63,814 nucleotides of DNA from Phascolarctobacterium sp. (GTDB lineage: Bacteria > Bacillota > Negativicutes > Acidaminococcales > Acidaminococcaceae), in assembly GCF_030531065.1 (NCBI RefSeq), contig NZ_JAUNOQ010000012.1, positions 1 through 63,814 on the forward strand. The letters run 5' to 3'. Numbering within the stretch: position 1 is the stretch's first letter; each line of letters opens with the position of its first letter. Below the pieces are notes generated by a model, which was given only the letters and a program-made list of their open reading frames with translations, was not told the DNA's origin and searched no databases. Of the stretch, positions 30,963-44,166 are shown piece by piece. A program made the translations under genes and the position numbers.

Positions 30963-31277
30963 ATGGCAAAAGAACTTAATTACAAAGAAATTGGCTTGCG
31001 TATTAAAACCCTGCGCTTGAAAAGCAACATTTATCAAACGGATCTGGCCAAAGAAATTGGCGTGTCTCAAACACATATGAGCAATATTGAAAGCGGCAGA
31101 GCGGGCTTGACTCTGGAAAATCTTGTAAAAATGGCGCGTATTTTTGACTGTGGTATCGATGAAATTGTTTTTGGTACGGAAGCAGTAAAGCAGGATACAG
31201 GCTTGGAGGCCTTGAAGAACTGCACTATGCAGGACGTGCTGCAGGCTTTGCAGATGCTGAAAACTATTAAAAGTTAA
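30963..31277 (+). CDS. XRE-family helix-turn-helix regulator
   Basis: A 104-residue protein with an N-terminal Cro/CI-type HTH: LRIKTLRLKSNIYQTDLAKEIGVSQTHMSNIESGRAGLTLENLVKMARIF. The C-terminal 40 residues are unlike a sensor domain. ATG 30963 is chosen over an in-frame TTG at 30945. It precedes the unusual 31.7-44.1 kb gene block on the same strand with 480 bases and a hairpin between, so it may regulate that block or be unrelated. Confidence 0.88.
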   Translation: MAKELNYKEIGLRIKTLRLKSNIYQTDLAKEIGVSQTHMSNIESGRAGLTLENLVKMARIFDCGIDEIVFGTEAVKQDTGLEALKNCTMQDVLQALQMLKTIKS

Positions 31278-31763: not shown

Positions 31764-33161
31764 ATGATGAGAAGAATAATTTTATTTATTACATTGGCGT
31801 TGCTTGCGATTTTTCTTTATGGGTGTTCTAATAATGACGCCGGCGGGCGGAATATAGCGAAGCCGATAGTAAATGTTTCTAGTAAATCAGATAGCATAGA
31901 TGCTGCAATTTATATTGATGGAACTTTTTCTATGGCGGGGTACGTAAATCAGCAAGGTAGCTCTGTTTATAGCGAATCGCTGAAAAATATAGAGCGCACG
32001 ATTACCGGTGGGTGGAAGCAAGAAAAAATCGAATATGTAAAGTTTGGCGACAGCTTGCAGAATTTAAGTCGCGAGCAATTTTTGCAAGCAAATCATACAA
32101 TTTTTTATCAGGAAAAAGATACAAGCTTACAAAAAGTAGTCGAAGCTATGGATGCTAATAAGCTTAATATTATGGTTACGGATCTTTTTCAAACGAATCA
32201 GGATATCGATAGCTTAATAATAGCATTGAAAAAAGCTTGTTTTGCTGACGAGAGCAAAGCAATGGCGATAATTGGTGTGAAAAGTCAATTTAACGGTAAA
32301 ATTTACGACGTTGGCAAAAATATGTTAGCGTTTGCCTACGCCAGCAATGATGAAGTGGAATCGTATAGGCCGTTTTATTTGTTAATTATAGGTAAGGAAG
32401 CGGACGTGCGTTTTTTTGCCGAAGCTTATGCTAAAAATTTTGACGACGATAGGCTTATTAAAATGAATTTGCTGTCTAAACATATGGGCTGCAATGTTAA
32501 GTTGACTTCTGGAAAAGCGGTGAAAAATAATAGTAAGGAAAGAATAGCCAACATGGCGCAAATTTCCACTATGCTAGGGAGTAACAGCGATATTTTGCAG
32601 TACCGTCTAAAATTAGATGAAAAGAAGTCGGGCTTTTACGCGACTTTGACAGCTGAAGATGTTATCGGTAATTGTCCGGATAAATTTAAGCGCACTATTT
32701 CTGATGTAGAAAAATGGCAACAAACGGGTAAGCAGAAAGAGACAGGCTTCCTAAATAAATTGATGGGGAAAGCTGCTAATAGCTTTGGCAATGCGGAGTT
32801 TGTTAAAGTAGACCACAAGGATTTCTTAGAAATTTTAGCTTCTGACGCCGGTTTACATGATACTAACGCTAATGTTCCGCTGCAATTTATTTTTAATCCG
32901 CTTGGAATAAGAAAAGCGGAAGGCAAATACCGAGTTAAGATAGCTGTTCTTCCAGATAAGGACGACTATATAGAGTCAAATAATGTATTCAGCGATTGGA
33001 ATTTTCAAGATGCGGAAATTTCTAATCCTGAAGATTTGTCGGGAATGGGGAATAAAACATTGAATATTGATGGCTTTGTAAAAATGGCTGCTTCGTTGAA
33101 TTATGAAATGAATCAGCCCGGCTTCTATGATATTTATGTTTATTTAGAAGCTTTGAAATAA
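31764..33161 (+). CDS. vWA-like lipoprotein, first gene of an uncharacterised operon
   Basis: About 465 residues. The signal peptide ends in a lipobox (FLYGC, Cys21), so the protein should be lipid-anchored on the periplasmic side. IYIDGTFSMAGY (Asp52, Thr54, Ser56) resembles the DxSxS metal-binding motif of von Willebrand A domains, and IMVTDLFQ (Asp near 135) fits the later MIDAS position. The C-terminal third looks beta-rich. The ATG at 31764 is chosen from GGAG 5 bases upstream. It starts a same-strand series to 44092. AT-rich codon use unlike the arg genes. Role unknown; metal-dependent adhesion or assembly is an inference. Confidence 0.65.
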   Translation: MMRRIILFITLALLAIFLYGCSNNDAGGRNIAKPIVNVSSKSDSIDAAIYIDGTFSMAGYVNQQGSSVYSESLKNIERTITGGWKQEKIEYVKFGDSLQNLSREQFLQANHTIFYQEKDTSLQKVVEAMDANKLNIMVTDLFQTNQDIDSLIIALKKACFADESKAMAIIGVKSQFNGKIYDVGKNMLAFAYASNDEVESYRPFYLLIIGKEADVRFFAEAYAKNFDDDRLIKMNLLSKHMGCNVKLTSGKAVKNNSKERIANMAQISTMLGSNSDILQYRLKLDEKKSGFYATLTAEDVIGNCPDKFKRTISDVEKWQQTGKQKETGFLNKLMGKAANSFGNAEFVKVDHKDFLEILASDAGLHDTNANVPLQFIFNPLGIRKAEGKYRVKIAVLPDKDDYIESNNVFSDWNFQDAEISNPEDLSGMGNKTLNIDGFVKMAASLNYEMNQPGFYDIYVYLEALK

Positions 33162-33194
33162 TTTTAAAATAATATTTTTAAGGAGCGTGTAAAA

Positions 33195-33644
33195 ATGACT
33201 TGGGGTAGTTTTATTGTCAAAACGTTAGGCATGTTAATTTTGTTGTGGTTGGTTTTATTCTTCGCTTACGGAAATATGTTTTTAGTTGACACCATTGTTC
33301 CGGTAGAAGGAATAGACGTAGATGAATGGATTAGTTCATATAAAATTTGCGGAGGAATCAGCGGCCTTTCAGGGTTTATTTGCGCAGCCATTTGGTTTTT
33401 CATAGGTAATGGGTATGCGGGTGAAGGCGGAATAAGCATAAAATTTTATGCTCTGTTAATACTTTCTATTGTTTTAGGCCTTTTATGTAATTTTATTTTC
33501 TTACCGGGAGCTGTTGACGGCAGCGGCTTAGCAAGCGTATTTGTCGTAGTATTTCCTCCGGTGTTATATTATTTGGCAGGCTTGTTTGCGTATGCGCCCG
33601 CTGTAAAATATATTCCTGCCGGCGCGGATACTTTACATAAATAA
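33195..33644 (+). CDS. Small polytopic membrane protein, unknown function
   Basis: A 149-residue protein with about four hydrophobic segments (roughly residues 6-30, 51-72, 82-104 and 111-135) and few charged residues between them. No family is recognised. A ribosome binding site (AAGGAG) precedes the ATG. It sits 33 bases after the vWA-like lipoprotein gene and 15 before the tubulin-like gene, so it is presumably part of the same operon and could be a membrane partner of one of them. Confidence 0.7.
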   Translation: MTWGSFIVKTLGMLILLWLVLFFAYGNMFLVDTIVPVEGIDVDEWISSYKICGGISGLSGFICAAIWFFIGNGYAGEGGISIKFYALLILSIVLGLLCNFIFLPGAVDGSGLASVFVVVFPPVLYYLAGLFAYAPAVKYIPAGADTLHK

Positions 33645-33659
33645 TTTGGAGGAAAGAAA

Positions 33660-35159
33660 ATGAGTTATTATTTGATTGGCATCGGCGGGACTGGGGCCAG
33701 GTGCTTGGAATCTTTTGTTCATTTATGCGGCGCCGGGTTGTTAAAAGATTCACAGCCGGTAAAAATTATTTATGTTGACGCCGACGTATCTTGCGGTAAT
33801 TTGCAGCGCACACAAAAAGCGGCGGATCTTTATAATAAAGCGCAAAAGATTGGTTTTGGCAATATCGGTATTTTTAAAAATGTTCTTGATACATTTGACC
33901 CGTGGACGCCCGTTCCGGAAAATTGCGCTAACTTAGATGATGTATTTCAAAGAACCAGCTTAGTAAATAAAAAGGACTATAAGGCGTTAGGGTTGCTGTA
34001 CGAATCTTTATTTACAGAGCAGGAACGGAAAACGCCTTTAGATAAAGGTTTCCGCGGGCATCCTGCTATAGGCGCGGCCGTTATGAGTCACGCTATGGAA
34101 GAAAACCATACGGAGCAGTGGCAAAAAATAGAGCAGCAAATAAATACGGATAAGGACGCCAAAGTATTTTTGTTTGCTTCAGTATTTGGCGGTACGGGAG
34201 CTGCCGGGTTTCCTACTATCGCTAAAATCTTAAAAAATTATTTAAAAACAGATGCGGAAGGGCAGTGCATTGCCAAAATTGGCGGCGCGCTGGTCTTACC
34301 GTATTTTCAATTTCCACCTGCGCCGACGGATGAAGAAAAAGAAATGCAAGCCAAAGTTTCAGATTTTATGTTAAATACGAAATCAGCTTTGGATTACTAT
34401 AATAAAAGCGAAATTTTAGGCAATATTTTCAACAGCATTTATCTAGTAGGCGATAATGATTTGACGCAGATGAAGGAATTTAGCCTTGGCGCTAATACGC
34501 AAAAAAACGATTCTCATTTTATTGAAATTTATGCCGCTTTAGCCGCTTTCGATTTCTTTAACAAAAATAATTTTGAAAAAGTAGAAACGCCAATGATAGC
34601 GCGGGGCGATGATACCGAAGCGACGACGGATAAAATTATGTGGGAAGATATTCCTAACGTCTGCGTAGACGGCAATGTCAAGGATAAGTTAAGCGCGTTT
34701 ATTAGGTTTTTATACGCCTATAAAAATTGCATTCTTGTAAATTTGGAAAAGTGCGCGCACGACGAAAGCGAAAAAAGAAATGTCGCCTGGTACAAGGACT
34801 TAGTAGAAAAAGCCGGTAAAATTGACGTATACCATGATCGGGAAGTAATGGATTCCTTTAAGGCTTTGGGCGATTATACCGACGCATTTTTTGAGTGGTG
34901 GAAGCAAATTATCCAAAGTAATGATAAACGGCAAATTGAATTGCTAAATAAAATGATTTGGGAAAGCAGCATTTGGGAGCAAAGCCGTTTGGATATTTAT
35001 CAGGTGGTGCTGCCGGTTAAAGAACGCAAGGATAAACTTACGTATCAGGCATTTTTTAAAGGACTTTGCACTTATACGCGCAAGCTGAAAACCACTAATG
35101 ATAGCGGCTCGGAAATTTTGATGAATGCCGCTTATGAATTATGCAATAGCAGTAAATAA
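33660..35159 (+). CDS. Tubulin/FtsZ-like NTPase candidate
   Basis: A 499-residue soluble protein. The start MSYYLIGIGGTGARCLES has a Rossmann-like glycine loop, and about residue 178 there is ASVFGGTGAAGFPT, matching the position and pattern of the tubulin/FtsZ signature GGGTGSG. The remaining C-terminal half is helical and unassigned. Proteins of this kind are annotated as tubulin-like and are sparsely characterised; GTP binding and polymerisation are therefore inferences. An NAD-binding fold is the main alternative. GGAGG precedes the ATG. Lies between a membrane protein and an actin-fold ATPase gene. Confidence 0.62.
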   Translation: MSYYLIGIGGTGARCLESFVHLCGAGLLKDSQPVKIIYVDADVSCGNLQRTQKAADLYNKAQKIGFGNIGIFKNVLDTFDPWTPVPENCANLDDVFQRTSLVNKKDYKALGLLYESLFTEQERKTPLDKGFRGHPAIGAAVMSHAMEENHTEQWQKIEQQINTDKDAKVFLFASVFGGTGAAGFPTIAKILKNYLKTDAEGQCIAKIGGALVLPYFQFPPAPTDEEKEMQAKVSDFMLNTKSALDYYNKSEILGNIFNSIYLVGDNDLTQMKEFSLGANTQKNDSHFIEIYAALAAFDFFNKNNFEKVETPMIARGDDTEATTDKIMWEDIPNVCVDGNVKDKLSAFIRFLYAYKNCILVNLEKCAHDESEKRNVAWYKDLVEKAGKIDVYHDREVMDSFKALGDYTDAFFEWWKQIIQSNDKRQIELLNKMIWESSIWEQSRLDIYQVVLPVKERKDKLTYQAFFKGLCTYTRKLKTTNDSGSEILMNAAYELCNSSK

Positions 35160-35173
35160 AGGAGCGCTGATTT

Positions 35174-38100
35174 ATGTCTATACCTTTACTTCCAAGTTTA
35201 AAAGAAGAAAATAAAATAGCTATCACTAAACGCGGGCAATGGGCATCTGATAATCAGACTTCTTTATCCGGGTTGGTTGACGGTTTGAAAGTTACTGCCG
35301 ACGCTCAGTCTAATATTACGTCCATTCCCGATTTATGGGCTCGTCCCGCTATGTACGAGATGGTATTATTTGACGAAAAGCATCATTTACATAATAAGTA
35401 TTTAGCGGAATGGCGCGGCATTTTGGCTATGCTGGCCCTGCGCGATATGCGCAATTTTAAAGACATAAAAAAAGAAGAAATTATTTTACCGGAAATTAGT
35501 AAAATACCCGCTAACAGTTTTAGCTTTTTTAAAGTTATTGCCAGCCTTTTGCCGGACGAATACAAAAAATATAAAGATAATACTATTGATAGCGGCTATA
35601 AACTCCAGATTCTTACCTATGCGGAAAGGGCTCTGGCTATTATTTGGCCTACTATCTTGGTGTGCCCTGCTATCGGCTTAGATAAAATGATAGACCGTTC
35701 GGTGTCTTGGTGGAATGTTGACGGAATTTCCGACCCTGTGTCCAGCATTAGCGAACAGGAAAAGGCTTTGTTGAAAAAATGGCTCGATAAGATTAAAGAC
35801 GATATTATTGATTACAATACGTCTCATAAAGAATACAAGCTGGAAAAGACAGTTCGGTTGTTGGATGATTTTCAAAATGATTTGGAAACTAACGAAAATC
35901 CTACTAATTATTCCTTAGGTACAGGTTTGAAAATTACCGGCTTTTGCCAGTGTATCGATAAAGCGATTAAGTGTAAGGTTGACGCGCAGCAATTTTTGGC
36001 GGCTTCTAATGTAAGATTGATTAATAGAAGAGGTATCGACGCCAAGAATTTATTAGTCATGACGCCCGATATGTATAAGCAGTGGAATAGAGCCGCCAGC
36101 GACATTGTTGTCGCAGGCAATATCAATCTTGATTCCGCTTTGCCTTATGGAGGCGTAATTTTTGATAAAGAAAAAATTAACGGCGAAGATTTAAGTCCTT
36201 TCAATGCGGAACTAAGAACGGGCGAAGACTTTTTTACGGAAAAAATTTGCCTGATTGAAGGTTCCGGCGCTGCTTTTCCTAATTCTTTGTATAAGGAGCC
36301 TTTCGTTTATAGGCGTCCTCAGAACATTTTGCTGCCTATTAAGAGAGAACTTTTAAATTATCTTTCCCCGGAATATATTGTTAAAAATTTCCGCATCAGC
36401 GTAGTAAATGATGTGGATATAAAGGTCGAATTAGATTTGCCGTTATCCGGTTTTTCTGAAGAAGGCGAAATATTAACTATCCAAAAAGTATATAAAGGAA
36501 ATACGGACGCCGAATACTGGAAACGCGATATTGTGGATGATTTAGCGTTGCCTTTAATTCAAATTTGGCCCAATTTCATTCCCAATGATGAGAAAAACTG
36601 GCAGGCTTATTATTCTTATTACGATACTTTGGGTAGCAGTACTTTTGCCGTAGAGCCGCTGTGGAATGAATCTGTAAAAAGAAAGGTTACCTACGACGGT
36701 GGTTTCTATGCCGAAATAGTTAAAGGAAAAACTTTCCCGGAAGGCTATGCTTGTACGGCTGAGTTCCAAACGACGGCGCAAACAAAGAACATCGAAATCG
36801 GCTTGATTTTATTGGCTAAGCCGGATAAACTGCAGCTGCAAATAAATAATAATTGTAAGTTAGGCATAGACTTTGGCACGACTAATACTGTCGCTTATAT
36901 GTCGATGCATGATAAAACTGATATGATTCGTTTTAGAAACAGGCTATATTCTGTAACGGATTATAACGACGCTATTCCTATGGCAGAATTGCGTAGACAT
37001 TTCTTTACGGTATCAGAACAACCTAACGGCGACGCTATATCTATTCGCACTTTGTTTAATCCGAATATTGGCGAATTTAAAGGCGATTTAAATCAACCTG
37101 TATTTCCTGGAGTAGTATACTATTTGGACTCTATCACTAATATTGAAGACGATAAGGGCTTTACGAATCTAATTCAGGGTAAAGAAATGAAATGGGATAC
37201 CGCGCAGGGAATTGATTATATGAAATATTTCATCTTGCATATGGGTTTGCAATGTCTTGCAGAAGCGGTAGCGAACGGCGCAACTAATATTGAGTGGTAT
37301 TATTCTTATCCCGGTGCGTTTAGCGAATTGCAGATTGGCAAATTACAACAGATTTGGTCTGGGGCTGTAAAGATTTTCCAAAAAATCTGTCCTACTTTAA
37401 TTGCCGAAAAGGCTGTTGACAAAAGCGAAAGCACGTCTATGGCAGAATTCTTTAAAGGCAATATGCAGGCGACACTTTCGCGTGGTATCGCTTGCTTCGA
37501 CATTGGCGGCGGTTCGACCGATATTGCTATTTGGCGCGGTCTGGATAGCGCAAGACCTAAAGGACAGTGTTCTTTGCGTTTTGCCGGGAACAATATTTTA
37601 AATCAGCAATTATTTAAGAATAAACAGATTTTACAATATTTCACTAGCAATGATAGTGATTTTAATAAGAATATCCAGGCGTTATGTGTTGAAGATGATT
37701 ATAAAAAATTCAATATGAATTTAGAAGCCTTATTAAAATATCATGAAACAACTCTGTTTAAATCTTTAGTATCTACAACTGTTAATAAAGACGTAAAACT
37801 GTTTATAAGAAATATAGCGTTTGCTTTGTCGGGTATCTTTTTCTATGCAGGTATGATTATTGGTAATTTAAGAAAAAATAATGAGTTAGGGGAAGATTTA
37901 CCGCACTGCTATATTGGCGGCAACGGTTCTAAATTATTGGATTGGGTCGATAACGGTAATTACGATTGTGGAACCTCCAATACCTTTGAATCCGTTTATA
38001 CTACTTGCCTGGCTATGGGGGTAGGGGTAGCGACTAAATCTGGAATTACAAAACACGACTTGAATTTTGGTGTGAACAAGAGCAGTAAGCCTAAAGAGGA

Positions 38101-38566
38101 AGTAGCTTACGGTTTAGTATGCCGTCCAAGTATCAGCCTTCATAAGGCAAAAGGCAGCGGAGCTGACGATATGGTGTTTAATATTACCGATTTAGACGCA
38201 GAAAATTTTTTAGACGGATTATTATCTGATGAAAATGAGGGTAAAGAAGTTTTGGCGGGAGAAAAGTTCTATCTAGCTGGCGAAAAAATAGATAAAGACT
38301 ATATTACAGTTCAAGATATTCGCCGAGAGATAAAAATTGATCCTAATATGCCTACCTTTAAGTTATTCGTAAAGGGATTTAATGCTCTCATTGCTAAAAA
38401 AGGATACAGTAATAATTATCAAGTTAATTTTAGCGATGCTAATTTTGAAAACATCAGAGATCAAGCAAATGACGAATTTGCCAACCAGGCATTGGAGGAC
38501 GAAGAAAAAATTACTTTGGAACCGCCGTTTATCGTCATTTTGCGCCAAGCTTTAGCTTCTTTGTAA
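35174..38566 (+). CDS. Large protein with C-terminal actin/Hsp70-fold ATPase domain
   Basis: An 1130-residue protein. The actin-like ATPase domain starts near residue 560: phosphate-1 LGIDFGTTNTVAYM (about 562-575), phosphate-2 ACFDIGGGSTDIAIW (about 773-787) and an adenosine-type YIGGNGSKLLDW (about 913). The first 550 residues have no recognised domain. The architecture loosely recalls SrfB-type proteins, which also pair a large extra region with an Hsp70-like core, but I cannot confirm this. ATP binding is well supported; filament formation is not shown. AGGAG precedes the ATG. Confidence 0.72.
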   Translation: MSIPLLPSLKEENKIAITKRGQWASDNQTSLSGLVDGLKVTADAQSNITSIPDLWARPAMYEMVLFDEKHHLHNKYLAEWRGILAMLALRDMRNFKDIKKEEIILPEISKIPANSFSFFKVIASLLPDEYKKYKDNTIDSGYKLQILTYAERALAIIWPTILVCPAIGLDKMIDRSVSWWNVDGISDPVSSISEQEKALLKKWLDKIKDDIIDYNTSHKEYKLEKTVRLLDDFQNDLETNENPTNYSLGTGLKITGFCQCIDKAIKCKVDAQQFLAASNVRLINRRGIDAKNLLVMTPDMYKQWNRAASDIVVAGNINLDSALPYGGVIFDKEKINGEDLSPFNAELRTGEDFFTEKICLIEGSGAAFPNSLYKEPFVYRRPQNILLPIKRELLNYLSPEYIVKNFRISVVNDVDIKVELDLPLSGFSEEGEILTIQKVYKGNTDAEYWKRDIVDDLALPLIQIWPNFIPNDEKNWQAYYSYYDTLGSSTFAVEPLWNESVKRKVTYDGGFYAEIVKGKTFPEGYACTAEFQTTAQTKNIEIGLILLAKPDKLQLQINNNCKLGIDFGTTNTVAYMSMHDKTDMIRFRNRLYSVTDYNDAIPMAELRRHFFTVSEQPNGDAISIRTLFNPNIGEFKGDLNQPVFPGVVYYLDSITNIEDDKGFTNLIQGKEMKWDTAQGIDYMKYFILHMGLQCLAEAVANGATNIEWYYSYPGAFSELQIGKLQQIWSGAVKIFQKICPTLIAEKAVDKSESTSMAEFFKGNMQATLSRGIACFDIGGGSTDIAIWRGLDSARPKGQCSLRFAGNNILNQQLFKNKQILQYFTSNDSDFNKNIQALCVEDDYKKFNMNLEALLKYHETTLFKSLVSTTVNKDVKLFIRNIAFALSGIFFYAGMIIGNLRKNNELGEDLPHCYIGGNGSKLLDWVDNGNYDCGTSNTFESVYTTCLAMGVGVATKSGITKHDLNFGVNKSSKPKEEVAYGLVCRPSISLHKAKGSGADDMVFNITDLDAENFLDGLLSDENEGKEVLAGEKFYLAGEKIDKDYITVQDIRREIKIDPNMPTFKLFVKGFNALIAKKGYSNNYQVNFSDANFENIRDQANDEFANQALEDEEKITLEPPFIVILRQALASL

Positions 38567-38643
38567 TTTGATAATGTGATTTACGGGTTCAAGATGATTT
38601 TTAGTTATTTTGAACCCTGTTTTCTTAGAAAGGATTGATTTAT

Positions 38644-39447
38644 ATGGATTATGAATATTATCAAGGAAAGTTACAGGATATAAAAAATGCTTTGGACGAA
38701 GGCTATAAATCGTGTGCGGATAATTTTAAGAAGCAAGAGAGCCTTTATAAAGACAATATTTATTTCATCGATACTTTAATGCAGGATATTACTTATAAAA
38801 AAATTACTGAGGATAATTTAGCAATTATCCAAAAAATTTTACGAGGTGAATTTACGGATAGCGCTTTGCCGAGCCAATTATCAAAAAAAGATGAAAACGA
38901 AAAAAGCTCTATTGATAGCTTACAAATCCAAAGAGGTACAACTCCTGATATGATTTCTAAATTTTCTTATGGGGAAAATATAAGGGAAGCTTCTTCTAGC
39001 GAAATTGAGGCTGTAAAAAAGTTCATAGAGGCATATAAAGCTGGGCAATTATCCTCTAATTACGAGACATTAGGAATTTCTAAAACCTACGCTCAAATAT
39101 TTGCCTTTATGAATAAAGATAGGTGGAAAGCGTATCAGGATAAAGATAAAATTTCTTTATCCGCTAAAAATGTCAATAGAATTTTATATTTTGCCCATGC
39201 TGTTGAGGGGAAATCGAATGTATATTTTTTAACTCCTTCTCGTACAGAAATGGCGGCTTTCGGAGGGACTAAAGCAATTCAATCTGCGTATCCGGCTTTT
39301 TTTGATTTTGATATGGAAGTATGCGCAACGGAAAATAAAAAAGTAGCTAAATTGATAGCTCCTGCAGTCGTTGTAAAGAAAGACGACGAATATAAACTTT
39401 ATGTGGATAAGAATGGCAAAGCTTGGAAAGGCAAAATTGAATTTTAA
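38644..39447 (+). CDS. Uncharacterised soluble protein of the 31.8-44.1 kb operon
   Basis: About 267 residues with no signal peptide or membrane segment. The N-terminal 90 residues are charged and helical, the middle contains a Ser/Lys-rich stretch (LSKKDENEKSSIDS), and the C-terminus is more beta-rich. No motif is recognised. The ATG at 38644 has AAAGGA 9 bases upstream. A 77-base gap with the inverted pair GGGTTCAAGATG / ATTTTGAACCC precedes it, the largest gap in this part of the operon. It directly precedes the MotA-like gene by 14 bases. Confidence 0.65.
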   Translation: MDYEYYQGKLQDIKNALDEGYKSCADNFKKQESLYKDNIYFIDTLMQDITYKKITEDNLAIIQKILRGEFTDSALPSQLSKKDENEKSSIDSLQIQRGTTPDMISKFSYGENIREASSSEIEAVKKFIEAYKAGQLSSNYETLGISKTYAQIFAFMNKDRWKAYQDKDKISLSAKNVNRILYFAHAVEGKSNVYFLTPSRTEMAAFGGTKAIQSAYPAFFDFDMEVCATENKKVAKLIAPAVVVKKDDEYKLYVDKNGKAWKGKIEF

Positions 39448-39461
39448 AGGGGAATGGTAAA

Positions 39462-41198
39462 ATGGATTTTTATGTACATCTTGTATGGCCGCAGGAATGG
39501 CTCTTGCGTGCAGTCATTAGTTTACTTTTTGTTGTAGCTCTTTATGTGGCTTGGCTGTGCGTAAGATTGCGCCTGCGCGTTGCCGAAAACTACAAAATAT
39601 TGGAAGCTTTGGGAAGTAAGGATGATATTTATTACTTAGAGAATACTTTAAGAATGAATAACGTCGATTATGAAGGCGCTTTTACCGTATTTGAAAACAA
39701 TAAAGGAAAAACAGATGCAAACGAGCCTGTCTTTGAACATCTTAAAGCAATTTACGACGCTGGGCGCAGAAGTAGCAGACTGGACGCAGATTTGCTGGTT
39801 AAAAATACTATTGATAAAATCTGTACTAATGTCGATACCATTAAAAGTTGTATTTCCGTATTTTTGGTTATTGGTATTTTAGGTACGTTGATTGGCTTGG
39901 GTTTGAGTATAGGTTCTTTTAACGGCGACAGCTTTATTATTCAGGCGGATGCTAATAATACCGCTAAAGAATTATCGAAGCTGTTTGGCAATTTGCGGGG
40001 TGCGTTTGCTCCCAGTATGTGGGGCGTATTTTTAACTATTTGCTTTGTTATTTTATATACATTATTTATTCAGGAACGTTGCATCAATAAGCTTACGGAT
40101 AAATTGACGACCAGTACTATTAAAGTATGGCTGCCCGCGTTATATCCAACCGATTTTCAAAAGGGCGCTAACACGATGGCGCAGTTAAACGATACGATAA
40201 AAAATGCGTCCGGCATCAATGAGAGCGCTAACGACTTACTAAGCAATTTGGATATGGCTAACGCCACGGTAAAAGCATTGAACGATGTTTCTGCGGCTCT
40301 TAATCAGTCTGTAGAAAAATTTAACGATGGCAGCGACAAAGTAAGCGTTTTGAAAGATTCCATAGCAGCTTTGTCGCAGCAAATAGAGGAAAATAATAAA
40401 AATTACCAAAAGTTTATGAGCGACGCCATAGTTCAGGTCAGCAATTTCCAGAATGACGCGCGGCAGCAATTTATGGAGCAAATTAAAGCTGTACGCGATA
40501 ATTTTGAGTTGCAAAACGCACAATTACAGGAAGTAGTAAGAACTTTAGCCATTTATGATAAGAATGCTTTCAGCAAGCATCAGGATTTGGATTTGAAATT
40601 AGCTTCTTCCGCTAACGATATCAATAGCGCCGTAGCGACGCTTGACGATAGGGATAAGAAAATTATCGGTACGGTAGAAGGAGCGTTGGCGCCGCAAATA
40701 GTTAAGATGACTGAACAGATAAAAAAAGTGAGTGAAGCTTTGGACCGTATTGACAGTCCCTTAACTTCAACTGCGGGAGAAATTCAAAAAATGTTCGGCA
40801 ATATGCTTACCAGTATGGAACACACGCAAGCCGATATGCTTCAGGCCATTACTAAAGGAGGCATTTCTGCCGAAGATATAGAAAAAATGATGCGCAATAA
40901 GGTTGCGTCGTCCAATTTTCCTGATAACGGGGGCATGGAGCAAAAGTTGCAGGATATTTTGGAATGTTTGCAGCAAAACAGCGTTAATAATGCAGGTAGT
41001 AATTTGCCGATTGCAACTGTTACCAAGGATGATGAAGGAACAGTTGGCGTTGTAAAAAAATATATGCCTATAGCTATCGGCATTTTGTTGGCGATTAGCA
41101 TTGCAGTACAGTGCGTAATGGTGAGCAAAATTGGCGCGCTGGAACAATCGCAGAATAACGTTAACCAAGTGCTTTTAAAAGGCGATAAGGTAAGATAG
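39462..41198 (+). CDS. MotA/TolQ/ZorA-like membrane channel with long coiled-coil tail
   Basis: A 578-residue protein. An N-terminal membrane segment (about 15-37) is followed by two more (about 133-156 and 188-210); the first of these has ILGTLIGLGLSIG, the pattern of MotA/TolQ/ExbB proton channels. Residues about 240-420 are heptad-rich coiled coil, and an extra C-terminal membrane segment (about 540-560, IAIGILLAISIAVQCVMV) is unusual. Paired with the MotB-like gene 14 bases downstream, it could form an ion-driven stator. ZorA of Zorya defence systems also has a long tail, but that resemblance is only architectural. Confidence 0.72.
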   Translation: MDFYVHLVWPQEWLLRAVISLLFVVALYVAWLCVRLRLRVAENYKILEALGSKDDIYYLENTLRMNNVDYEGAFTVFENNKGKTDANEPVFEHLKAIYDAGRRSSRLDADLLVKNTIDKICTNVDTIKSCISVFLVIGILGTLIGLGLSIGSFNGDSFIIQADANNTAKELSKLFGNLRGAFAPSMWGVFLTICFVILYTLFIQERCINKLTDKLTTSTIKVWLPALYPTDFQKGANTMAQLNDTIKNASGINESANDLLSNLDMANATVKALNDVSAALNQSVEKFNDGSDKVSVLKDSIAALSQQIEENNKNYQKFMSDAIVQVSNFQNDARQQFMEQIKAVRDNFELQNAQLQEVVRTLAIYDKNAFSKHQDLDLKLASSANDINSAVATLDDRDKKIIGTVEGALAPQIVKMTEQIKKVSEALDRIDSPLTSTAGEIQKMFGNMLTSMEHTQADMLQAITKGGISAEDIEKMMRNKVASSNFPDNGGMEQKLQDILECLQQNSVNNAGSNLPIATVTKDDEGTVGVVKKYMPIAIGILLAISIAVQCVMVSKIGALEQSQNNVNQVLLKGDKVR

Positions 41199-41212
41199 CG
41201 GGAGGCGGGTAT

Positions 41213-41917
41213 ATGCTGAAAGATAAATTCGGTTTCAACTTTTGGCCGTCTTTTACCGACCTTATGTTGTCGTTAGTATTGGTAGTGTTGATTATTCTTT
41301 TCGTTGTATCTAAAATGATTGCTTCCGGCAGTGAAAATCTGGATAAGGCCAGGGATAGTCAAAAATCTATTCAAAGTCAGATACAGGATAATATTAGCGG
41401 CAATTATACTATAGCCGTCATTTCTGATAAAAGTAATGAAGAAACTAACGAGCAGATGAAAAATAGTCAGGCGGATATTACGATTATCAATAAATTGGAC
41501 CGACAGACGATTACTTTTAGCGATAAGATTTTGTTCGATTCGGGAAGAAGCGATTTAAAACCGGCGGGATACGAAGTGTTAAAGATTGTCGGGCCTGTTG
41601 TGGCGGCGAATTTGGAGAATATCAGCGAGATTCAGATTCAAGGGCATGCCGATATTGTCAATACTGACGATTTTAATTTGACGTTGGCGTCTGCCAGAGC
41701 GATGGCTGTTTATAAATTTCTGCAAACTTCTGTGGGGATTGATCCGGCGAAGTATTTGATGTCTATTACGTCTTTTGGCAAATATAAACCTGTTGGACGT
41801 GAAGCTGGGCAATATTTTGATCAAGCTAAATTAGAAGCGGCCAATGCCAACAATGATTTAAAAGCTAAGAATAGGCGTATCGAAATAGTGCTGTTTTATA
41901 AGAACGATATGAAGTAA
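41213..41917 (+). CDS. MotB/ZorB-like protein with OmpA peptidoglycan-binding domain
   Basis: A 234-residue protein with one N-terminal membrane segment, FTDLMLSLVLVVLIILFVV, carrying Asp16 at the position of the proton-binding aspartate of MotB. A roughly 60-residue linker leads to an OmpA-like domain: LFDSGRSDLKPAGYEVL, IQGHAD, LASARAMAVYKFL and the final NRRIEIVLF. This set predicts anchoring to peptidoglycan. It directly follows the MotA-like gene, the order of motAB and zorAB. With its partner it would convert ion flow into torque or conformational work. Confidence 0.82.
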   Translation: MLKDKFGFNFWPSFTDLMLSLVLVVLIILFVVSKMIASGSENLDKARDSQKSIQSQIQDNISGNYTIAVISDKSNEETNEQMKNSQADITIINKLDRQTITFSDKILFDSGRSDLKPAGYEVLKIVGPVVAANLENISEIQIQGHADIVNTDDFNLTLASARAMAVYKFLQTSVGIDPAKYLMSITSFGKYKPVGREAGQYFDQAKLEAANANNDLKAKNRRIEIVLFYKNDMK

Positions 41918-41934
41918 AGCGGGGAGGAAATATC

Positions 41935-42819
41935 ATGCAGTGTCCAATTTGTAAAAATAATTTAAATCCAGGCGAGCAAGTTTGTAGTAAATGTGGAACA
42001 AACATTATTTATTGTGATAATTGCGGCGCTGCTAATAAACAAGAAGAAAAATTTTGTGGCCGATGCGGAAATGTTTTAGCTGGTAAAGATTTTTCAGAAG
42101 GGGAAACATTTATACCGCCGTATTTAGATTCAGCTTCCGCAAAGAATAAGACTACTACAGAAAATGCGCCGAGTAAACCTGTCGCAGATAAACTTAGTAA
42201 AATTGTAAATATTAAAGCGATTGGTGCTCTGGGTGCAGCAGTTGTATTATGTTTTGGAATATACAACTTTAGCTTAGTAAATAAAAATGATTCTGTTTCC
42301 AAGCAAACGTTGCAACAAGAGGCACCTGCGCCGGAAAAAAAGCTGGAATCCAAAGAAACCAAAAGCGAAGATAAGGCTCCGGCGAAATCAGAAAAGGTTG
42401 GGAAGATAGAAATAGATAATAATAAAAAATATACTGACGCTAGGGTTGAACGGGCTAAAAATATGGTGCCTGTGCATTATAAGCCGCAGCGCTATTATCA
42501 AGACAACATTATGTACCCAATGGTTTATGGTAAGCAGGGAGTTTCTTATTATATTGATTTATATGAAGCTACGATAGATCATGAATATACCTTAGAAGAT
42601 GGCAGTAAAATTTATGAGTTTTCTACATTTTCTATTTCCAGCGATGGAATTAGTGCTAGTAAATCGCGTAAAGAAGCTTATGTAAGAATTAGTGACAAAG
42701 TTGAGCCTGTTTCCAAGGAAGGGGAACATCAATGGAAACATATGGAATATTTTGGCTTTACTGCTCAGCAGTATAATACTGCGCTACTATTAACAGATTA
42801 TTTTCAGCTTGCAAAATAA
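41935..42819 (+). CDS. Zinc-ribbon membrane-anchored protein
   Basis: A 294-residue protein with two adjacent zinc ribbons at the N-terminus (CPICK...CSKCG and CDNCG...CGRCG), a charged linker, one membrane segment (about 96-115, IGALGAAVVLCFGIYNF), a Lys/Glu-rich stretch and an extracytoplasmic beta-rich domain with many Tyr. The ribbons should lie in the cytoplasm and the C-terminal domain outside. Double-ribbon proteins of this kind are common in Firmicutes with no fixed function. Follows the MotB-like gene by 17 bases. Confidence 0.72.
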   Translation: MQCPICKNNLNPGEQVCSKCGTNIIYCDNCGAANKQEEKFCGRCGNVLAGKDFSEGETFIPPYLDSASAKNKTTTENAPSKPVADKLSKIVNIKAIGALGAAVVLCFGIYNFSLVNKNDSVSKQTLQQEAPAPEKKLESKETKSEDKAPAKSEKVGKIEIDNNKKYTDARVERAKNMVPVHYKPQRYYQDNIMYPMVYGKQGVSYYIDLYEATIDHEYTLEDGSKIYEFSTFSISSDGISASKSRKEAYVRISDKVEPVSKEGEHQWKHMEYFGFTAQQYNTALLLTDYFQLAK

Positions 42820-42854
42820 AATTGCAGTAGTTTGTTGAAAGGATTTGATGAATT

Positions 42855-43010
42855 GTGGAAATTTTAATTTGGTTGGGTTTGGCTGTAGCTATTGGTTATT
42901 TTGCTAAGGAACGCGGAAGAAGTCCTCTTGGATGGGGATTGGCGGCGGCTGTTTTCAGCCCGTTGTTGGCTTTTATAGTTCTCTTAATTTTGAAAAACAA
43001 TCGCAGGTAA
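42855..43010 (+). CDS. Small membrane protein with GRSPxGWG motif (short paralogue)
   Basis: A 51-residue protein starting at GTG, with AAAGGA 11 bases upstream. The sequence MEILIWLGLAVAIGYFAKER then GRSPLGWG and a second hydrophobic segment predicts a helical hairpin in the membrane with the GRSP loop between. It closely resembles the first 47 residues of the next gene, so the two arose by duplication. Function unknown. It is below the usual length cut-off and easily missed. Confidence 0.7.
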   Translation: MEILIWLGLAVAIGYFAKERGRSPLGWGLAAAVFSPLLAFIVLLILKNNRR

Positions 43011-43031
43011 ATATATGTAGGAGGCGAGACG

Positions 43032-43469
43032 GTGGAATTTTTAGTTTTTATTGCATTTGCCGTGGGCATAGGTATGTTTGCTAAAAAGAAAGGGCGCAGC
43101 CCTTGGGGGTGGGGCATAGCTTCATTATTTATTAGTCCTTTATTAGCGGGAATTATTTTGGCGTTGATGAAAGATATTTCCCAAGAGCAAGGGATAAATG
43201 AGGTAGACATGCAGCAACAAGCTTTGAAAGAACGCGTTGCAGTGAATGAAGTGCAGATAAATCAGCGCTTTGAGAAAGTGGAAAACCAACTTTCTTCCAT
43301 AAAAAAAGAAGTTGGTATGTTGGCGAACGATAAATCTGAAGAAAAAGTTTTATTAGCCCCAAATAAGCCAACTGCCGAAGTTAATTTTTGCCCACGCTGC
43401 GGTAGTAGTGTGAGAACTGACGCTTGTTTTTGTATAAAATGCGGCGCTCCTTTAAAAAGCGAGGATTAA
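43032..43469 (+). CDS. Membrane protein with GRSPxGWG hairpin, coiled coil and zinc ribbon
   Basis: A 145-residue protein, GTG start after AGGAGGCGAGAC. Its N-terminal 47 residues (MEFLVFIAFAVGIGMFAKKK, GRSPWGWG, second hydrophobic segment) duplicate the upstream 51-residue protein. A helical segment (about 55-100, probable coiled coil) and a C-terminal zinc ribbon (CPRCGSS...CIKCG) are added. The ribbon and coiled coil should be cytoplasmic. It may tether a partner near the membrane motor proteins, which is an inference. Confidence 0.75.
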   Translation: MEFLVFIAFAVGIGMFAKKKGRSPWGWGIASLFISPLLAGIILALMKDISQEQGINEVDMQQQALKERVAVNEVQINQRFEKVENQLSSIKKEVGMLANDKSEEKVLLAPNKPTAEVNFCPRCGSSVRTDACFCIKCGAPLKSED

Positions 43470-43474
43470 GATAG

Positions 43475-44092
43475 ATGAAGATGTTTAACCGATGGCTGCA
43501 AAGTGTGCGAGACTATACTGGCTCTAGTAAATTATCTCTTGCTGGAGAAATAATTATCAGCAGCAAGCAGCTTTCGCAGATTTTGATGCTCCAAGATGTG
43601 GAAAAGACGTTAATTAGCAAAATTACTGCAGAATTAAGACGGCAGTTTTCATATTTACAGATAAAAGAGCAACATAATGTTGTAGAAACAAGTATTAAGT
43701 TTTATACTTATGAAAAATTTATTGCTGAGACACAATTTTTAGAGAAATTTAGGTCTGCTTTAGCAGATTGTTTATGCTGCCTTAATGAAACGGACCGATT
43801 GAAGGCTTGTGTTTCGGTCAAAGGGGCTATTTTGAATACTAGCTTTGAGCAAAAGTTTATATTTTTAAGCAAAGAATCTAAAGTAGAATATAAGATAATT
43901 GATAGGAAGGAAGTAGGGAATTTTAACGATATTAGTTTGCACCGCATTAAAGTATATGGGTTAGCGGCTATATTTGGCATTCTGATTTTGTACAATTTAT
44001 ATTGTTTGTACGCCTACATTCCTGACCATGATCCAAGCAAATTATTACATCCAGTAAATTTAAAATCAGCAAAATGGAAGATTGACATATAA
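43475..44092 (+). CDS. Tail-anchored protein of unknown function, last gene of the block
   Basis: A 205-residue protein with no signal peptide. A charged, mainly helical and beta-mixed cytoplasmic part (about 1-165) precedes one C-terminal membrane segment (about 168-190, VYGLAAIFGILILYNLYCLY) and a short tail. No family was recognised. It starts 5 bases after the zinc-ribbon gene, with GAGGA 9 bases upstream, and is followed by a long inverted repeat, so it probably ends the operon. Confidence 0.68.
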   Translation: MKMFNRWLQSVRDYTGSSKLSLAGEIIISSKQLSQILMLQDVEKTLISKITAELRRQFSYLQIKEQHNVVETSIKFYTYEKFIAETQFLEKFRSALADCLCCLNETDRLKACVSVKGAILNTSFEQKFIFLSKESKVEYKIIDRKEVGNFNDISLHRIKVYGLAAIFGILILYNLYCLYAYIPDHDPSKLLHPVNLKSAKWKIDI

Positions 44093-44125: not shown

Positions 44126-44166
44126 AGAGAAAACACTCTGCAGGGGATAGTGCAGAGTGTTTCTCT
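44126..44166 (+). terminator. Long hairpin after the block
   Basis: AGAGAAAACACTCTGCA pairs with TGCAGAGTGTTTCTCT (one bulge) around GGGGATAG. There is no strong T run after it, but its place 34 bases beyond the last gene fits a transcript end. Confidence 0.6.

Follow-up and report, generated by a model that had tools for sequence, protein, structure and literature searches.

A conserved operon core with actin-like and tubulin-like proteins, followed in Phascolarctobacterium by a ZorAB-type motor pair: a possible machine of the bacterial envelope

An operon of Phascolarctobacterium sp. was found to join a tubulin-like protein and an actin-like protein within a gene set of conserved order. It lies at 31764-44092 of the window, by which is meant the whole analysed stretch of 63,814 nucleotides (contig NZ_JAUNOQ010000012.1, assembly GCF_030531065.1), and comprises eleven genes, designated A-K, all on the + strand and separated by gaps of 5-33 bp, the D-E gap alone being longer, at about 80 bp; this layout agrees with a preliminary description made from the letters of the DNA and a list of its reading frames. 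A encodes a lipoprotein, B a small membrane protein, C the tubulin-like and D the actin-like protein, E a protein with a conserved C-terminal domain, and F and G a stator-like pair, while H-K encode smaller membrane-associated proteins. It is proposed that the products of A-G constitute one envelope-associated machine that monitors and remodels the envelope when it is disturbed, with a variable slot after the core, and this proposal is given slightly less than an even chance of being right.

The actin-like label that D had received earlier is borne out by structure and sequence alike. In an AlphaFold2 (AF2) model of D, with a mean predicted local distance difference test (pLDDT) score of 77, residues 558-1005 align with MreB in VIA (Z 18.5, 287 residues, 3.8 A) and also match FtsA (Z 17.9) and actins (Z about 17), and the D profile matches MreB (E=2e-8), DnaK and FtsA by sequence. 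The phosphate-1, phosphate-2 and adenosine motifs of the actin superfamily are found together with the fold: D566, G568, E752, D776, G778 and D783 show little or no variation among 30 relatives, Asp566 being the phosphate-1 and Asp776 the phosphate-2 residue, with Glu752 and the surrounding glycines also kept. The motifs quoted in the preliminary description, including DFGTTNT and DIGGGSTD, are present, and those which bind nucleotide are conserved in relatives. On the strength of the model, residues 558-1005 are assigned to the MreB/actin fold. This fold and its nucleotide motifs are common to D and the MreB/FtsA/actin family; in contrast to those proteins, the domain of D is embedded in a protein of 1100 amino acids (aa) with an N-terminal region of about 550 residues. 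The SrfB family (PF07520) was not among the matches of D in a Pfam scan carried out without profile-profile comparison, and cyanobacterial D proteins are annotated as 'hypothetical protein' by NCBI.

C belongs to the Tubulin_2 family (PF13809, E=1e-11, above the cutoff), as do eight of the ten members of its family by the same model, and its conserved FGGTGAAG-type loop corresponds to the GGxGTG-type T4 loop by which the family is recognised; the tubulin-like label thus stands, and a sequence search of PDB with C gave no match. For A no Pfam match to a vWA domain was obtained and a sequence search of PDB with the A family returned chance-like matches only, so structure was used instead. The AF2 model has a pLDDT of about 90 across residues 40-240, and the top PDB matches listed by VIA are nearly all vWA/MIDAS domains, with Z values of 6.8-8.3 across 123-163 residues. 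A Z of about 8 is weak by itself, and it is the uniform match list together with the motifs D/E-x-S/T-x-S-M and TD, which agree with this fold, that carries the call. A is therefore predicted to have a vWA fold, as had been suggested although Pfam is silent, and its lipobox Cys21 and its Asp140 are invariant in 18 relatives. The B family profile matches the same position in other core loci. E was described as a soluble protein, which holds in the window; in many relatives, however, the alignment reveals a bitopic protein with a signal sequence, one transmembrane (TM) helix and a coiled region ahead of the conserved C-terminal domain, which would therefore be cytoplasmic in those relatives.

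The genes of the core belong to one system, as is supported by their order, by fusions and by the co-occurrence of C and D at the genome level, and the survey of neighbourhoods accordingly upholds the earlier grouping. A search of genome contigs with the single C sequence gave no match; the search with an alignment of D succeeded and found 22 positive genomes among 300 of the class. More distant D loci lie in Sericytochromatia, two lineages of Clostridia, Flavobacteriaceae, Hymenobacter and further Bacteroidota, on cyanobacterial plasmids and in human oral Prevotella. With family profiles built without loci L099-L106 and L125-L127, A-B-C-D were recovered in the same order and on one strand in 15 loci of Bacillota, Bacteroidota and cyanobacterial plasmids, E usually being next; recurrence of this order in such distant phyla goes beyond chance. 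B is fused to the N-terminus of D at L046:9329-14727 (-) (E=4e-15), and 13 genomes have the C-terminal domain of E joined to D in one protein. All 19 Tubulin_2-positive genomes among the 300 are also D-positive (Fisher p=3e-27, a value that overstates independence since genomes were counted and many are of one genus; per genus, D occurs in 7/97 and Tubulin_2 in 4/97). In some genomes C and D stand at separate loci and D is still present, as in genus g283, where they lie on different contigs. The distance matrices of C and D correlate at r=0.99, and at r=0.98 for unlinked pairs, in part from the shared ancestry of the genomes.

Several candidates were set aside in this survey. Weak D-profile matches in most genomes of Bacteroidota and Bacillota (E 1e-8 to 1e-4), which fall at model position ~780-830 and in reading frames of FtsA/MreB size, are probable cross-matches to FtsA/MreB. 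A gene of about 470 aa near C in genus g283 was rejected on testing as a hidden A and is LytR-CpsA-Psr-like by eye, and L037:9403-10803, taken for A by its position, was dropped as peptidase-like, the true A of that locus being 1490-2707. At L046 a 389-aa protein of the FtsZ/tubulin type (PF00091 E=3e-9) stands beside A and the B-D fusion and replaces the usual C.

As to F and G, the preliminary description had called them a stator-like pair of the MotA/TolQ and MotB/OmpA kind. A motor pair with an OmpA-type domain is indeed found by Pfam and PADLOC, but it is of ZorAB type rather than a generic MotAB or TolQR, and ion-driven motors of this type are known so far chiefly from the phage-defence system Zorya. 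F matches PF01618 (E=4e-6) and PADLOC ZorA (E=6e-6), its best PDB sequence match being ZorA 8qyy (E=1.3e-3), and its channel residues T142, S185 and T192 are invariant. G matches PF00691 (E=1e-12), PADLOC ZorB1 (E=6e-18) and the PDB entries 8vvn (E=6e-11) and 8qyd (E=6e-6), and the ion-site Asp16 in its single TM helix is likewise invariant. By sequence the pair appears divergent and closer to ZorA/ZorB than to other motors. Zorya depends on the ZorA tail and on ion flow; its ZorB attaches to peptidoglycan, and its effectors act in the cytoplasm (PMC11890865). F-G share with it the channel residues, the ion-site Asp, a long cytoplasmic tail and a peptidoglycan-binding domain; ZorC, ZorD and ZorE were not detected in the block, whose cytoplasmic partners are tubulin-like and actin-like instead. 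Among the other block proteins PADLOC gave no match at E<=1 to these or any other Zorya effector, and since no known effector is detected, the block is not Zorya.

The position after D-E is variable. F-G follow D-E directly in the window and at L027 (Negativicutes; a contig that starts inside C) and at L053, L099 and L100 (Bacteroidota), and at L107 F is present with no G called. Most relatives of the core are without F-G and have other genes downstream, several of them from families with peptidoglycan as substrate or binding partner. The motor had been taken for a part of the machine; that it follows D-E in some relatives agrees with this, but it lies outside the conserved core. At L104:6171-8062 (-) TerD gene(s), one of them confirmed individually, adjoin A-B-C-D and an OmpA-domain protein, and three TerD matches were found among 115 flanking proteins.

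The block had also been described as matching no named system, and this is true in part: no paper with the combination was found, but C belongs to FtsZl1/Tubulin_2, whose operons were predicted in 2010 (Makarova & Koonin, PMC2875224). In the accessible part of that paper, the genes beside FtsZl1 encode vWA, GTPase, kinase and OmpA proteins, and membrane remodelling is predicted for these operons. They are the closest kind described so far, and like them the block has a Tubulin_2 protein beside a vWA protein, together with OmpA-domain and membrane proteins, and a patchy spread over diverse bacteria. A divergent P-loop GTPase or protein kinase is reported there as frequent, and no such Pfam match occurs in ten window proteins; as these genes are described as frequent and not universal, their absence is no bar to the same operon type. 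As a further difference, the proteins of that text usually have an extended coiled coil; MotA/ExbB and Hsp70 are unmentioned there, and actin appears in general remarks only; D may be among the unannotated families of its supplementary lists. The link that this account lacks might be provided by bitopic E, by the membrane protein B and by F-G. The other related prediction concerns GTPase-centred conflict systems (Kaur et al., eLife 2020, PMC7159879), in which, according to the accessible part, tubulin with vWA, or HSP70, belong to separate themes. Their GAP1-N2 systems resemble the block in tubulin-domain proteins, vWA proteins with TM segments and zinc ribbons, with HSP70 in another theme. 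They are defined, however, by a DO-GTPase, GAP1 and an FNIII-repeat protein, none of which was detected in the block (the general Pfam scan gave no GTPase or fn3 match; GAP1-specific models were not checked separately), and no motor figures in their description as accessible, unlike the block with F-G. No description of a joint operon of actin-like and tubulin-like proteins was found in the open-access literature, a coverage which leaves out many journals.

Established here are the composition and conservation of the gene set, the folds and the intact catalytic and channel residues, and on this ground a proposal can be made for physical assembly, polymerisation, the direction of signalling and the task. 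D, as an actin-like ATPase, and tubulin-like C would form a nucleotide-controlled assembly at the inner face of the cytoplasmic membrane, held there by B and E, with the C-terminal domain of E working with D, and A would serve as contact or sensor on the outer side. Lineages would insert different modules after D-E, here a ZorAB-type stator. In a role borrowed from the Zorya mechanism, G would anchor to peptidoglycan, ion flow through F would move the coiled-coil tail, and the tail would hand force or signal to the C/D assembly. The task would be to monitor a disturbed envelope and remodel it, with anti-phage defence as one possible use. Some observations weigh against this proposal. Most relatives are without F-G, so the motor cannot be essential to the action of the core. 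An obvious T7 catalytic loop is missing from C, as it is from FtsZl1 proteins in general, and polymerisation of C is thus uncertain. Species phylogeny confounds both the co-occurrence and the distance correlation of C and D, about half of D (residues 1-557) obtains no family from the VIA rows, which is no sign of a new fold, and the task of envelope surveillance follows from domain logic only.

An actin-like and a tubulin-like protein are joined in one conserved, horizontally moving module in three phyla. Tentatively, and somewhat short of an even chance, a trans-envelope machine of an undescribed kind is envisaged, in which NTPases of the actin and tubulin folds act jointly at the membrane; in some lineages an ion motor anchored to peptidoglycan would be linked to them, so that the flow of protons or sodium would drive or trigger a bacterial cytoskeletal pair. 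It is a serious possibility that the actin-tubulin core merits a category of its own, apart from the FtsZl1 kind. F-G beside this core would show that ZorAB-type motors serve systems beyond Zorya, and the fusions, the invariant catalytic residues and the cultured cyanobacterial and Hymenobacter carriers offer handles for the function of FtsZl1, unexplained since 2010.

Of the possible tasks, envelope surveillance and remodelling is the first choice, phage defence is placed second and constitutive morphogenesis third. In a dedicated, Zorya-like defence, F-G would sense wall damage by phage and the tail would activate the C/D NTPases, which would block infection directly or via an effector, for which H, J, K and the N-terminal half of D come into question. 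The nearness of F-G to ZorA/ZorB, the patchy, low-GC and plasmid-borne distribution and the predicted vWA/GTPase conflict systems with tubulin or HSP70 (PMC7159879, as far as accessible) are in its favour. Yet PADLOC and Pfam reveal no nuclease or known effector among the operon's proteins, the 115 flanking proteins have no clear enrichment of defence genes (the PADLOC matches shown being mostly general families and single members), scans of phages and viral contigs with D gave no relatives, and F-G are missing from most loci; this explanation is unlikely. It is improbable that the operon encodes a constitutive machine of morphogenesis or of a surface structure, comparable to a specialised elongasome or gliding motor, in which C/D filaments, powered by F-G, place envelope synthesis or an adhesin: MreB is the nearest fold to D, variants carry peptidoglycan-directed or OmpA-domain partners and membrane remodelling has been predicted for FtsZl1 (accessible part of PMC2875224), but an accessory distribution, even inside one genus, speaks against a basic shape function and no secretion or adhesin gene is recognised in the block. 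That an A-B-C-D-E core and an independent ZorAB-type motor are merely co-located would suit the many loci without F-G, but the order D-E-F-G is identical in two phyla and this explanation is very improbable.

Table 1. Features of the block in the window and of related loci (positions without a locus name are those of the window)
Feature	Position or locus	Strand	Basis or remark
HTH_3 (XRE-type) regulator	30963..31277	+	PF01381 E=2e-13; upstream, outside conserved block
A, lipoprotein, vWA-like domain ~40-240 and C-terminal beta-rich part	31764..33161	+	
B, small membrane protein, about 3-4 TM helices	33195..33644	+	
C, tubulin-like, Tubulin_2/FtsZl1 family	33660..35159	+	PF13809
D, 1130 aa, predicted MreB/actin-fold ATPase domain ~558-1005, helical C-terminus	35174..38566	+	
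Hairpin and T-rich tail in D-E gap, possible partial terminator	38585..38617	+	15-pair stem
E, soluble here, conserved C-terminal domain	38644..39447	+	Alignment of relatives
F, ZorA/MotA-type channel protein, long coiled-coil tail	39462..41198	+	Pfam, PADLOC, PDB
G, ZorB/MotB-type, one TM helix, OmpA-type peptidoglycan-binding domain	41213..41917	+	Pfam, PADLOC, PDB
H, double zinc ribbon, one TM helix, extracytoplasmic domain	41935..42819	+	PF13248 E=6e-9
I, 51-aa membrane peptide	42855..43010	+	Reading frame; paralogue of J N-terminal part (sequence read directly)
J, membrane protein, C-terminal zinc ribbon	43032..43469	+	PF13240 E=3e-6
K, tail-anchored protein	43475..44092	+	Hydrophobic segment read from sequence
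Stem-loop terminator	44130..44163	.	13-pair stem; right edge of block, where G411 homology restarts
GH3 family protein downstream of D	L042:4295-5455; L045:15249-16442		Place of window's motor
YkuD L,D-transpeptidase downstream of D (with an SH3-like protein also at L101)	L101:12209-14109		Place of window's motor
OmpA-domain proteins after D-E	L103, L104		
Retropepsin-like protease after D-E	L102		
A-B-C-D ordered loci	Window, L042, L043, L045, L049, L050, L051, L053, L099, L100, L101, L102, L104, L105, L126		
Partial or rearranged sets	L037, L052/L107, L103, L106, L125, L127		

The block is an accessory insert, probably acquired, because its guanine-cytosine (GC) content is 0.378 against 0.50 in the left and 0.54 in the right flank, a D search of the congener G411 gave no match, and the homology of G411 with the window restarts at the block's right edge, at 44130, 38 bp past the stop of K, from where it extends through a livK-type gene. 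The stem-loop terminator at 44130-44163 coincides with this right insertion edge. The hairpin between D and E sits in the sole long gap of the block, and expression downstream of it may be lowered; terminator-like sites in its region occur at chance frequency. The HTH_3 protein upstream is a possible regulator of the block.

Gene I, with 51 codons, is below the 90-aa minimum of the reading-frame list. The Pfam scan covered ten window proteins, giving no match for K. At L125 and L126 the core is carried by plasmids of the cyanobacteria Gloeothece verrucosa PCC 7822 and Picosynechococcus sp. PCC 7003, and these plasmids are typed as mobilizable. A contig of Sericytochromatia (L048), from a genome in which no C match was obtained, contains D together with three genes of E type and a part of another reading frame that resembles D. 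Zinc-ribbon membrane proteins recur close to other core loci.
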